Source: Patescibacteria group bacterium
Lineage (GTDB): Bacteria > Patescibacteriota > Minisyncoccia > Phycocordibacterales > BOKC01
DNA: 48,144 nucleotides
Direction of reading: 5' to 3'
NCBI GenBank assembly: GCA_016860785.1
Contig: BOKC01000005.1
Coordinates: 1-48,144, forward strand
A program made the translations under genes and the position numbers. Positions 3,879-16,084 of this stretch are shown in pieces. Within the stretch, counting starts at the first letter, position 1. Each line of letters begins with the position of its first letter. The notes under the pieces are model-generated. The model had not been told where the DNA came from, did not search any database, and saw nothing but the letters and a program-made list of their open reading frames with translations.

Positions 3879-4735
3879 TTATTTCACCAAATGAACAGTT
3901 CTGGTTGGAAAAGCAATTTCAATTTTTTCTTTCTCAAGAATTGCTTTCAAACGCAAGTGAATTTCCTGTTGGACATTCATATAAGCGTTAAAGTCTGGAG
4001 ATTGGGTATAATAGACAACTTCAAAATCTAAAGACGAGTCACCAAATTTGTGGAAGTGCGCCCTATCAAATCGCGTCAGATCAATTGAATCAATAATCTC
4101 TTTTATAAAGTTGGGAATTTTTTCTAATTTATCGTTGGGCGTTCCATAAACAACACCAAAAGAAAAAGTAACCCGCCGTTCTTTCATTTTTTTGAAATTG
4201 TGAATCCGAGCGCTGGTTAATTCCTGATTGGAAATAACAATCTCTTCGCCCTGAAGAGCTCTCAAGCGAGTAGTTTTGATGCCAATGTGCTCCACTACTC
4301 CCATATCACTGCCAACAATAATAAAATCACCCGGCACAAACGGCTTGTCAAAATGAATTGAGAAAGAACTGAATAGATCGCTTAAAACACTTTGCAGAGC
4401 CAGAGCAATAGCAATACCACCAATGCCGAGGCCGGCCATAAGCGAGGTCACATTAACACCTAAGTTGGATAGAACAAAAAGAACAGCAATCACCCACAAA
4501 ACACCTTTACTTATCTTACCGATAAGTTTAATTGCGCCTTTGGTCCCCTCGGTTTTTTCTTTTCTAGTAAATTTCCTAACGGCGTAGTCAACTAAAATGT
4601 TTGAAGCCAACGCCGCTTGATAAACGACCCAGACTACCAAAACAACAGTCAAAAATTTCCAGAGTAATTCCTGAACTTCTATAAACCAAAGGGCAAAATA
4701 AAATGCCAAAAAGAAATAAAACGAAAATTCTGTTA
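3879..4735 (-). pseudogene. mscS-type channel, C-terminal part (split by IS)
   Basis: Encodes the downstream part of a small-conductance mechanosensitive (MscS-family) channel, which releases solutes on osmotic down-shock. Seen: membrane helices, the pore-lining helix with alternating small residues (LMAGLGIGGIAIALALQSVL), the beta domain (FVPGDFIIVGSDMGVVEHIG, then TTRLRALQGEEIVISNQEL) and a C-terminal alpha/beta domain. The apparent ATG at 4745 lies within the terminal repeat of the inserted IS and is not the native start. The missing N-terminus is at 5727-5953, on the far side of the IS. Independent translation of this fragment is possible but unproven. Confidence 0.85.
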
Positions 4736-5726
4736 TGAAGTGCAACTTTAATAGAATGAAGTTGTATGAAATACAAGCATTTGAATCAGTCCGATCGCGA
4801 TCGAATTGAAGTGATGTGGAGAGAAGGAATAAACCAGATTGAAATAGCCAAAGTGCTCAAGGTACACAAAAGCACTATCTCAAGAGAAATTGAAAAACAT
4901 AAGAGAATAAATGGCATATACGATGCCGATACCGCAGAGCATAAAGCCAGAGTGGGGAGAGGTAATTCCAAGTACCAGGGTATGAAGATAGAAAGAAATC
5001 AAGATTTAAAAAGAACCATCACCAAAGAGCTTAAAGAAGGAAGATCCCCAGATGAAATAGCAGGCAGGATGAAGAAAGAGAAAATCTATCCTAGAGTGAA
5101 CAAAGATGCTATCTATAAGTGGCTCTATAGCTCCTATGGAGAGCGATACTGCAAGTATTTGTGCACCAAGAGGAAACGCAAAAAGAAGCAGACCAAAAAG
5201 GTTAAAAGAGAGATGATACCGAACAGAATAAGCATATTTGAGCGCCCTATAAGGGGTATACACGCGGAAGGAGACACCTTCTTATCTCCAAGAGAAATCA
5301 GGGATGCTGTGGCGATTGTTGGTTTAAAGAAAGAAAAATATCTCTCTGCAATACGCATACCGAATCTCAAACCAGACACCATGAAAAAAGCTGTACGGGA
5401 GATAGTTTCAGAGATTGAGATTGATACGCTCGCTTGGGATAACGGAATTGAAAACAAAAAGCATGAGGAATTTGGAGTGCCATCATATTTCTGTGATCCA
5501 CATGCTCCGCACCAGAAACCATTCATTGAAAGTTCGATCGGACTCTTGAGGAGATGGTTCATTCCCAAGGGCACTGATCTAAGAGAGGTGAGCCAGGAAC
5601 AGTTGGGTGTTTATTTAAACATTCTCAATAACAAGTATAGAAAATCGCTCCAATATCGGAGCGCTTATGAGGTGGCTATTGAAAAAGGTATACTAAAGAG
5701 ACATTAATAGGATGGGTTGCACTTCA
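4736..5726 (+). mobile_element. IS30-family insertion sequence interrupting mscS
   Basis: A 991-bp element has perfect 11-bp terminal inverted repeats (TGAAGTGCAAC at 4736-4746; its complement at 5716-5726) and one transposase gene nearly filling it. No exact target duplication is seen: the flanking triplets are TTA on the left and CTA on the right. The element sits inside a leftward channel gene whose two halves match the two sides of one MscS protein. Confidence 0.88.
4766..5707 (+). CDS. IS30-family transposase
   Basis: The 313-residue protein has an N-terminal helix-turn-helix (HLNQSDRDRIEVM, then IAKVLKVHKSTISREI), typical of IS30 transposases. A DDE-type catalytic core follows: HAEGDTF supplies the first aspartate, TLAWDNGIEN the second and PFIESSIGLLRRWF the glutamate. 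The usual C-terminal NxxxRKxLxxxTP-like region reads NNKYRKSLQYRSAYE. The length is close to family norms and the frame is intact, so the element may still be active. It ends 19 bases before the right terminal repeat. Confidence 0.93.
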   Translation: MKYKHLNQSDRDRIEVMWREGINQIEIAKVLKVHKSTISREIEKHKRINGIYDADTAEHKARVGRGNSKYQGMKIERNQDLKRTITKELKEGRSPDEIAGRMKKEKIYPRVNKDAIYKWLYSSYGERYCKYLCTKRKRKKKQTKKVKREMIPNRISIFERPIRGIHAEGDTFLSPREIRDAVAIVGLKKEKYLSAIRIPNLKPDTMKKAVREIVSEIEIDTLAWDNGIENKKHEEFGVPSYFCDPHAPHQKPFIESSIGLLRRWFIPKGTDLREVSQEQLGVYLNILNNKYRKSLQYRSAYEVAIEKGILKRH

Positions 5727-5953
5727 CTAGAGAATTTACCAAAGGGCGGACGCAGTTTCTTTACAATGGAAATAAATGTCTCGTCCAAGTCGGTCTTGGT
5801 TTTTAAAGCCAGTTTTTCCAGCCATTTTAAAATAAATTTATTAAAAACCGAAAAAACAGCCAGTAAGATAAGAAAAACTGCTGCAGCCAACAGATAGTCA
5901 GAAACAAGACTTTCTCCCAATTTAAAATTCAAAATGTCTAAAAATCTCTCCAT
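5727..5953 (-). pseudogene. mscS-type channel, N-terminal part (split by IS)
   Basis: The first 75 or so residues of the interrupted channel start at ATG 5953 (MERFLDILNF). They contain a membrane helix (YLLAAAVFLILLAVFSVF) and the KTKTDLDETFISIVKKLRPPF segment that in MscS relatives precedes the next helix. The frame then runs into the IS. An extended -10 (TGCTATATT, 5961-5969) stands seven bases before this ATG, so the ATG at 5986 is less likely to be the start. Gene remnants on both sides of the IS are in good condition, which suggests a recent disruption. Confidence 0.8.
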
Positions 5954-5960
5954 TAAGAAA

Positions 5961-5969
5961 AATATAGCA
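5961..5969 (-). promoter_or_regulatory. extended -10 promoter of the split mscS gene
   Basis: TGC followed by TATATT, read leftward, ends seven bases before the ATG at 5953, predicting a leaderless transcript. No convincing -35 is seen. Confidence 0.45.
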
Positions 5970-6041
5970 AAAAAAACACAATTCACAAACCAAAAACTAA
6001 AATAGTTTGGCTAGAGGATGCCGTTTCGGCAACAAAATTAA

Positions 6042-6173: not shown

Positions 6174-8272
<2,099 letters not shown>

Positions 8273-8394
8273 TCAGCCCGCCAAATAACAGCGGGTGAAT
8301 CTAAAACCTTTAGTTTTATTTTACCGCAAAAGGTCTGAAAAACAAAGGGAAAATATGCTTAAAAAGAGTTCGAGAGTTTTTTTAAACAATATAC

Positions 8395-8423
8395 TTGACT
8401 TTCTGTCTATTATATGATAGACT
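8395..8423 (+). promoter_or_regulatory. promoter with internal palindrome for the 51-residue gene
   Basis: TTGACT (8395-8400), a 17-base spacer and TAGACT (8418-8423). The spacer and -10 carry a perfect inverted repeat, GTCTAT at 8405-8410 and ATAGAC at 8417-8422 with six bases between, positioned where a repressor could bind. Confidence 0.65.
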
Positions 8424-8433
8424 ATCAAAAGAT

Positions 8434-8454
8434 GGGTGCGCGCAGGGCGCACCC
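8434..8454 (+). promoter_or_regulatory. leader hairpin 1 of the 51-residue gene
   Basis: An 8-bp GC stem (GGGTGCGC with GCGCACCC) closes a five-base loop, a few bases after the predicted transcription start. Confidence 0.6.
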
Positions 8455-8465
8455 ACAGGTACACA

Positions 8466-8482
8466 CTCCTTTCTAGTAGGAG
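8466..8482 (+). promoter_or_regulatory. leader hairpin 2 masking the Shine-Dalgarno
   Basis: CTCCT (8466-8470) can pair with AGGAG (8478-8482), the Shine-Dalgarno seven bases before the ATG at 8490. Pairing would hide the ribosome site, so translation could be switchable. This is a structural inference. Confidence 0.45.
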
Positions 8483-8489
8483 ACACACG

Positions 8490-8645
8490 ATGGCGTACCG
8501 AACCCGCAACTCGTCGGACAGTCGGTTCCGTAAGGGCCACAGAACGGATCGGTCACGGACAGAACCGTGGCTGACACCTCGAAGACAGCAGACCGTTCGG
8601 CCCACCGCCACTAAGTGCGGTGAGCAGAAGAGGGCGGGCAAGTAG
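8490..8645 (+). CDS. 51-residue arginine-rich protein, GC-rich locus
   Basis: A very basic protein (starts MAYRTRNSSDSRFRKGHR, ends GEQKRAGK) with no family I can name. It has a strong Shine-Dalgarno (AGGAG), its own promoter, two leader hairpins and a strong terminator. It is therefore a complete transcription unit between gyrB and the PheRS gene. Base composition is far more GC-rich than the neighbours, and the coding strand itself can fold (for example CACGG with CCGTG, and CACCGC with GCGGTG). It could alternatively be a structured RNA with a chance frame. The matched Shine-Dalgarno, ATG and stop just before the terminator favour protein. An RNA-binding or ribosome-associated role is speculation. 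Confidence 0.55.
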   Translation: MAYRTRNSSDSRFRKGHRTDRSRTEPWLTPRRQQTVRPTATKCGEQKRAGK

Positions 8646-8653
8646 CCCATACA

Positions 8654-8688
8654 CACCCCGACGTGAAAACGTCGGGGTGGATTTTTTT
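8654..8688 (+). terminator. strong intrinsic terminator
   Basis: An 11-bp stem (CACCCCGACGT with ACGTCGGGGTG) with a GAAA tetraloop is followed by GGA and seven T's. It ends the 51-residue gene. Confidence 0.92.
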
Positions 8689-8698
8689 GTCTCAAATT

Positions 8699-8730
8699 AG
8701 CCCCGCGCCGGCGTACGCTGGCGCGGGGCT
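8699..8730. repeat. 32-base GC-rich palindrome
   Basis: A near-perfect palindrome (AGCCCCGCGCC ... GGCGCGGGGCT) with one G-T mismatch lies between the terminator and the PheRS gene. It resembles the hairpins at 13234-13272 and 31138-31175, which share CCCCG/CGGGG arms. Confidence 0.7.
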
Positions 8731-8773: not shown

Positions 8774-9910
8774 ATGAAAATAAAAGTAAACTCTCTGGAA
8801 GAAGTTAAATTAAAAGAAGAGTTAAAAAAACGAGAGGATCCGGAAGCTAAAAGAATGATTCGATTTCTAGAAATGCCGGATCTTTCAAGAACCTCGGGAA
8901 ACCCACTTGCCGAACTTGCTCAAAAAATAAAGGCGATGTCAGATTTTGAAGATTTTGACGAAGTTGAAGCGCCAGAAATCGTCTCAACTGAAATCAGTTT
9001 TGATTTATTTGATTTTCCCGCCAACCACCCAGCACGTTCAAAGTCGGACACTTATTTTGCAAACGATGATTTCATCCTCCGCACTCATACCACCGTTATG
9101 TGGTATTTTCACCTCAAACAGCAAGAGGTTAGGGAAAAAATTAATCGCGGAGAAAGTGTCGGGGCTCTTTCTCACGGCAAAGTTTACCGGAAAGACGAGA
9201 TAGATAGGAATCACATGAACATTTTTCATCAGATGGACGGCTGGTTTCTCTGTCGGCGTGAGGAAAAAAACATCGGGCGGGAAGACTTGGAGGATATTTT
9301 GAACAAAATTGTGAAAACAATTTTCGGTCCGGACATTGAATACCGCTTTAATCCCGACACTTTTCCTTACACTGATCCCAGCTTGGAGATAGAAGTTAAA
9401 ATCGGTGACAGATGGATAGAAGTCTTGGGAGCTGGTGTTGTTAGCGGAAAAGTTTTGGAAAATTTGGGAGTTGATTCAAAAGTTTGGAGTGGTTGGGCTT
9501 TCGGCTTCGGCTTGGAAAGATTGGCAATTTTAAGCATGGATCTGCCGGATATTCGCCTGCTTTGGTCAGAAGATGAACGTGTAAAAAAACAATTAAAACT
9601 AGGGGCTAAGTTTCAGGAAGTTTCCAAGTTTCCGCCTGCCCCGCGCGACATTTCCTTCATCGTTCCTAACAGTTTCGTACCTAACAACTATTTTGACCTG
9701 ATCCGAGATATTGGAGGTGATTTGATTGAAGAAGTTGAATTGTTGGATAAATATGAAAATGCTGAAAAATTTGGTGTTGAAAAAACAAGCTACACTTACC
9801 GAATTATTTACCGCTCAATGGACAGAACCCTAACTTCCGACGAAGTTGAAAAACTCCACAAAAAAATAGAAGAAGAAACCAAGCGACAATTTAGCGCTGA
9901 AATCAGATGA
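8774..9910 (+). CDS. single-chain phenylalanyl-tRNA synthetase
   Basis: Charges tRNA-Phe. The 378-residue protein fuses two parts normally found on different subunits. Residues about 40-275 are the alpha-subunit class II core: motif 2 is YRKDEIDRNHMNIFHQMDGW (138-157) and motif 3 contains GWAFGFGLERLAI with PDIRLLW. Residues 285-378 form an FDX-ACB domain (FPPAPRDISFIVP ... SYTYRIIYRSMDRTLT), usually the C-terminus of the beta subunit. This is the architecture of monomeric mitochondrial PheRS, not the bacterial alpha2-beta2 enzyme. ATG 8774 is chosen because the open frame upstream runs through the 8654-8730 hairpins. No pheT is in the window. Confidence 0.9.
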   Translation: MKIKVNSLEEVKLKEELKKREDPEAKRMIRFLEMPDLSRTSGNPLAELAQKIKAMSDFEDFDEVEAPEIVSTEISFDLFDFPANHPARSKSDTYFANDDFILRTHTTVMWYFHLKQQEVREKINRGESVGALSHGKVYRKDEIDRNHMNIFHQMDGWFLCRREEKNIGREDLEDILNKIVKTIFGPDIEYRFNPDTFPYTDPSLEIEVKIGDRWIEVLGAGVVSGKVLENLGVDSKVWSGWAFGFGLERLAILSMDLPDIRLLWSEDERVKKQLKLGAKFQEVSKFPPAPRDISFIVPNSFVPNNYFDLIRDIGGDLIEEVELLDKYENAEKFGVEKTSYTYRIIYRSMDRTLTSDEVEKLHKKIEEETKRQFSAEIR

Positions 9911-15862: not shown

Positions 15863-16084
15863 CTAGCTGTTAGTTTTCCGAAGGCCCATTCTTTGGGCGT
15901 AAGTTAAACCAGTGTGAGCCGGCGGTGGCTTGTTCGGACTACATTCCGAGCAGAAATGTATTTCTGTTGGATCTTGAACACGCATCGGTTCACCGCATCT
16001 TGAGCAGAATGCTCTGAACCACCGGCTGCCGGGAATCTTATCGCCCGACTTGGTCCCGTCCGAAGCTTTTTTCTCACCAGACAT
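15863..16084 (-). CDS. small zinc-ribbon protein, SD-led
   Basis: The 73-residue protein has two cysteine pairs (CSRCGEP and CSECSP, about 18 residues apart) that should hold one zinc ion. Flanks are basic and proline-rich, ending LTYAQRMGLRKTNS. Function is unknown; small zinc ribbons often bind RNA or ribosomes. It has a strong Shine-Dalgarno (GAGGAG) and its own TTGACT/TAGGAT promoter with a leader of about 49 bases. It is more GC-rich than its neighbours, like the genes at 278 and 8490. Confidence 0.75.
   Translation of the reverse strand: MSGEKKASDGTKSGDKIPGSRWFRAFCSRCGEPMRVQDPTEIHFCSECSPNKPPPAHTGLTYAQRMGLRKTNS

Follow-up and report, generated by a model that had tools for sequence, protein, structure and literature searches.

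The segment from positions 8395 to 8688 of the window (i.e., the whole stretch of DNA analyzed here; 48,144 nucleotides of contig 5 of a 574-kb Patescibacteria genome) probably represents an autonomous single-gene transcription unit encoding a 51-residue, very basic, and probably unfolded protein that is old in its genus and was not found outside it; we assign this reading a probability of approximately 60%. The unit lies between the divergent gyrB gene (6191 to 8260, minus strand) and the co-directional pheS gene (8774 to 9910, plus strand), and both its promoter and its terminator belong to it alone. An initial annotation of the sequence had proposed a complete small-gene locus in this interval. 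All of the elements that it listed exist where it had placed them, and the proposal of a self-contained transcription unit is supported. Candidatus Paceibacter sp. BE2012_4_43_20 (G001/L008/L132), the sole congener compared, carries an orthologous unit at the same gyrB-pheS position, consisting of a promoter, a leader hairpin approximately 10 bases after the −10 hexamer, an AGGAG motif, an Arg-rich frame (58 codons), and a terminator. The computations support the frame, the synteny, the leader hairpin, and the terminator, while the stabilizing and binding roles proposed below are what we infer.

Coding evidence and distribution of the Arg-rich frame

The open reading frame at 8490 to 8645 (plus strand; MAYRTRNSSDSRFRKGHRTDRSRTEPWLTPRRQQTVRPTATKCGEQKRAGK) contains 51 codons, as the initial annotation had reported, and 11 of them (about 20%) encode Arg. 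Its product (~6 kDa) has a net charge of about +10.6 and a pI of 11.8 (11.7 in the congener). Chance alone would produce a frame of this length in 20% of transcripts shuffled at the same composition; therefore, the length itself is no evidence of coding. The initial annotation looked to homologs for conservation of the frame and for compensatory changes in the hairpins. With respect to the frame, the congener retains it in this comparison of two sequences: when all frames were translated, the in-frame peptide pair scored 63, while every other frame pair, same-strand or antisense, scored 41 or less. None of the 5,000 peptide shuffles reached the observed alignment score. Identical residues were encoded by different codons in 13 of 17 cases, and identities at the three codon positions were 22, 24, and 15 of 47. 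Since the score is frame specific, is not attained by the shuffles, and is accompanied by synonymous change, we regard the frame as coding; this assignment is supported by two sequences, with purifying selection judged from 47 codons and with an Arg-rich low complexity that inflates similarity. An antisense ORF (8321 to 8695) was rejected on the basis of the antisense frame-pair scores.

The two peptides share a conserved core (SDxRxR(K/R)GxR...xEPxxxPRR) and are 46% identical over 24 amino acids without gaps. Their overall identity is about 36%, compared with 81% for the N-terminal part of GyrB and 87% for PheS. As judged from this pair of sequences, the gene evolves fast. AlphaFold yielded no confident fold (pLDDT, 59; pTM, 0.14; a prediction resting on two sequences), and this low confidence fits a disordered basic peptide. 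On the basis of its charge, we infer that the product probably binds nucleic acid or ribosomes. In its pI (near 11.8), Arg content (~20%), and mass (~6 kDa), it resembles small basic nucleic acid- or ribosome-binding proteins (i.e., small ribosomal proteins and nucleoid-associated peptides); unlike these, it has no match among the Pfam, NCBIfam, or PHROGs profiles and no credible sequence match in the PDB.

A profile built from the two peptides recovered nothing credible from 397 genomes of the order (weak matches down to an E value of 5e−4). Seven open or near-open weak matches were inspected and lacked the anatomy of the unit, and stop codons interrupt several of the best remaining matches. 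Searches of GTDB contigs with the peptide returned nothing credible, and the two-sequence profile found nothing in viral contigs; among phage records, there was a single chance match (E = 0.4) inside a terminase. No family could be named in the initial annotation, and these searches did not yield one either. On present evidence, which covers two species, the Arg-rich gene is genus restricted.

The initial annotation left the choice between a small protein and a structured RNA carrying a frame. The whole transcript is predicted to fold at −114 kcal/mol (z = −5.2), and the mRNA of the ORF has z scores of about −2.2 and −2.0 to −2.2 in the two species relative to its own codon shuffles, values as low as those of 8.7% of control segments. 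The ORF mRNA is thus somewhat more structured than its codon shuffles, which leaves room for a function at the RNA level. Together with a third-position G+C content (GC3) of 0.71 that both species retain despite an AT-rich genome, these values speak for a reading in which the transcript is mainly a structured small RNA, with the frame incidental or secondary. We consider this dual-function or structural RNA unlikely, however, since the leader and terminator hairpins probably explain much of the whole-transcript z score, frame-specific amino acid conservation with synonymous change is unexpected for an RNA gene, the spacing of the AGGAG motif is conserved, and no Rfam family reaches threshold. 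The small-protein alternative is therefore the one favored by the frame-specific conservation.

Promoter, leader, and terminator

The unit begins with a predicted sigma-70-type promoter (8395 to 8423, plus strand), in which TTGACT (8395 to 8400) and TAGACT (8418 to 8423) are separated by 17 nucleotides and TATGA lies just 5′ of TAGACT. It scores 9/12 with a TG before the −10 hexamer, whereas shuffles yield 0.6 such sites per region. The orthologous promoter in the congener reads TTGACA-17-TAGTAT, also with TATG, and the stretch ATATGATAG and the subsequent TA..AAAAGA of the promoter region are kept there. The TTGACT/TAGACT promoter of the initial annotation was thus recovered, is of the extended −10 type, and has a counterpart in the congener.

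Overlapping the −10 hexamer is a near-perfect palindrome, GTCTATTAT/ATGATAGAC (8405 to 8422), formed by the inverted repeat GTCTAT/ATAGAC (8405 to 8410 and 8417 to 8422), which extends to 9 + 9 positions with one mismatch. Perfect repeats of at least 6 positions occur at 12% of the promoter-like sites across both genomes, and 13% of shuffles contain them as well; therefore, the repeat alone is not significant. We searched for the palindrome over the −10 hexamer of the orthologue and found it absent there. The operator-like repeat that had been noted is indeed present in the window, but an operator role is not borne out, and the palindrome is probably fortuitous.

Downstream of the promoter, a leader hairpin (8433 to 8455, plus strand; hairpin 1) begins approximately 10 nucleotides 3′ of the −10 hexamer. 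Its arms (8433 to 8441 and 8447 to 8455) are 100% complementary and form 9 bp around the loop GCAGG, one more than the 8 bp previously given for this GC-rich hairpin. Hairpin 1 is fully paired in both species; between them, one base pair differs by a double change from G-C to A-U and another by a change from U-A to U-G. Hairpin 1, the only hairpin for which compensatory changes were counted, thus shows one such double change, from two sequences. A strong hairpin near the 5′ end is accordingly conserved in both species, with the transcription start taken from the position of the −10 hexamer. Hairpin 1 would act as a stabilizer of the mRNA rather than as a switch.

The ribosome-binding region contains a second predicted hairpin (8466 to 8482, plus strand), in which CTCCT (8466 to 8470) pairs with AGGAG (8478 to 8482). 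The distance between AGGAG and ATG (7 nucleotides) is the same in the window and in the congener. The pairing itself is not conserved: CTCCT is absent from the congener, where a separate GGCCUAAAAGGCC hairpin lies upstream of an AGGAG that does not pair with it. The "hidden" Shine-Dalgarno (SD) sequence of the initial annotation therefore stands as a pairing within the window but not as a conserved feature. The locus resembles SD-sequestering leaders (i.e., RNA thermometers and translational switches) in the pairing of CTCCT with AGGAG and differs from them in the lack of conservation in the orthologue and in the extent of the pairing (only 5 bp; about −5.9 kcal/mol).

These two elements underlay the description of the locus as regulated. 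In such a gene, the GTCTAT...ATAGAC palindrome would be the target of a repressor and/or the CTCCT:AGGAG pairing would gate translation (e.g., as an RNA thermometer). The window contains both elements, and the palindrome pair occurs only once in the genome; however, since the palindrome and CTCCT are absent from the congener, the elements suggesting regulation fail the comparison, and a comparable repeat is as frequent at other promoter-like sites as noted above. We regard regulation by these elements as quite improbable, and this part of the initial annotation was not upheld.

The strong GAAA-loop terminator was confirmed as an intrinsic terminator (8654 to 8687, plus strand), consisting of an 11-bp stem with a GAAA loop (stem-loop, 8654 to 8679) followed by T7; the congener has a GC-rich counterpart. 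A second GC-rich hairpin, AGCCCCGCGCC...GGCGCGGGGCT (8699 to 8730), lies outside the gene and is a recurrent terminator-like element. Hairpins of the form AGCCCCGCG...CGCGGGGCT were observed at this site, at G000 C2:69132 and C3:21904, and at G001 C5:3965 and C9:63209, and they probably serve as bidirectional terminators. Within the window, only tRNAs reached the Rfam gathering score, with no family for the 8395-to-8688 transcript. At E values of up to 10, the matches were all below threshold, and the best ones fell on the 8699-to-8730 hairpin.

Composition and other small-gene units of the genus

The initial annotation described the composition as GC rich and unlike that of the neighbors, and the difference is real. 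The small ORF has a G+C content of 0.63 and a GC3 of 0.71, while the GC3 of six other window genes checked (i.e., gyrB, pheS, tsf, rpsB, prfA, and a bL31-like gene) is 0.31 to 0.40. The value of 0.71 recurs in the orthologue, notwithstanding the AT-rich genome. Expression-driven codon choice was ruled out as the cause, since the GC3 of tsf and rpsB is only 0.34 to 0.40. Recent acquisition of a foreign gene from a phage, a plasmid, or another mobile element might also produce such a composition outlier in the form of a single-gene unit complete with promoter and terminator, and relatives in the order carry different small units beside gyrB. However, the gene occupies the same site in both species, the two peptides have diverged until about 36% of residues are identical, and its GC3 is equally high in both; therefore, the acquisition was not recent. 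Moreover, no relative was found in viral contigs, PHROGs, phage records (apart from the chance match), or GTDB contigs. We thus judge recent foreign origin to be very unlikely, and a recent, not-yet-ameliorated import is no explanation for the high GC3 either.

The GC-rich pattern is common to some other small genes of the genus. In two further orthologous pairs, both species show a hairpin shortly downstream of the promoter: a small membrane microprotein pair (G000 C2:68881-69120 [L045] and G001 C8:1020, minus strand [L072]) and a pair of basic proteins of ~100 amino acids (G000_C3:66997, minus strand, and G001_C17:25684). In the G000 members, the leader hairpin is weaker or is not the predicted minimum-energy fold. 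The leader hairpin of the microprotein pair is UCCCGGCCAAUGACGGCUGGGA (weaker in G000), and its SD sequence is exposed in the loop of a second hairpin, which both species retain. A strict scripted scan detected leader hairpins in 4 of 14 GC-rich small units (5 when the congener's own unit is assigned its complete leader), compared with 1 of 41 long genes, in a small sample that is not independent and in which orthologues are counted twice. Both genomes were represented by sequence stretches, with G001 C2, C3, and C15 covered up to 730, 496, and 125 bases from their ends, respectively. Additional single-gene units that are GC rich and carry promoter-like sites together with purine-rich ribosome sites were observed in G001 (C6:14763, minus strand; C17:25684; and C18:1970).

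Visual inspection suggests that, in other families of the order, the divergent side of gyrB is often occupied by a different small-gene or small-RNA unit that has a promoter and a terminator of its own (L010, L012, L014, L015, L020, L027, L029, L032, and L033). A fold-based scan beside gyrB detected 4 of 25, versus 25 of 794 control genes (P = 0.01), in a comparison that includes the congener and was chosen post hoc; a strict scan for units beside gyrB missed several of those visible by eye. The enrichment is a hint only.

These observations raise the idea that the genus keeps a set of mini-units, each consisting of one GC-rich small ORF with a promoter, a 5′ hairpin, and a terminator, in which high GC3 and mRNA structure are actively maintained despite the AT-rich genome, with the mRNA functional beside the peptide. 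We hold this idea as speculative and rather doubtful. Equally tentative is the suggestion that messages from such units might, for instance, persist unusually long in an ultra-small cell. The gyrB-adjacent Arg-rich unit would be the clearest example of a mini-unit seen here.

Two other features of the window were observed. An IS30-like transposase (4766 to 5704, plus strand; HTH_38) is flanked by a frame for the C-terminal portion of an MscS-type channel (3879 to 4745, minus strand) and by a 97-amino-acid membrane-type frame (5693 to 5986, minus strand), which looks like an IS30-like insertion splitting an MscS-type channel gene (3879 to 5986). At 15863 to 16084 (minus strand), a 73-amino-acid zinc ribbon-like protein with two CxxC motifs (G+C content, 0.52) is preceded by the promoter TTGACT-17-TAGGAT; its matches to Pfam zinc ribbons are all below threshold.

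Proposed expression of the unit and relation to known systems

In the autonomous small-protein gene that we favor, the extended −10 promoter would produce an mRNA with a strong hairpin near its 5′ end. Hairpin 1 would hinder 5′-end-dependent decay, as the 5′ stem-loops do in the ompA and papA mRNAs; AGGAG, 7 nucleotides before the ATG, would drive translation; and the GC-rich stem with T7 would end transcription ahead of pheS. Constitutive expression would be the most economical reading of such a gene. Stabilization of mRNA by 5′ stem-loops is established for ompA and papA of Escherichia coli and for the aprE leader of Bacillus subtilis (papers listed in PMC3997798). At the sequence level, the unit resembles these mRNAs in having a strong predicted 5′ hairpin upstream of a good SD sequence. 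With orphan bacterial small-protein genes, it shares its short length, its own promoter, SD sequence, and terminator, the absence of detectable homologues beyond a narrow clade, and fast evolution. It differs from them in a GC3 that greatly exceeds that of the other genes checked and is retained by two diverged species, in its leader hairpin, and in its very high Arg content.

The unit adds a genuine, possibly unannotated, genus-restricted small-protein gene to a reduced genome, and it illustrates that a single congener can suffice to support a frame and a leader. What might raise the interest of the locus is its conserved GC-richness, a trait that a few similar units share. Should the GC-rich units with leader hairpins turn out to form a class, they would provide a handle on lineage-specific genes and on mRNA stability in ultra-small symbiotic bacteria.
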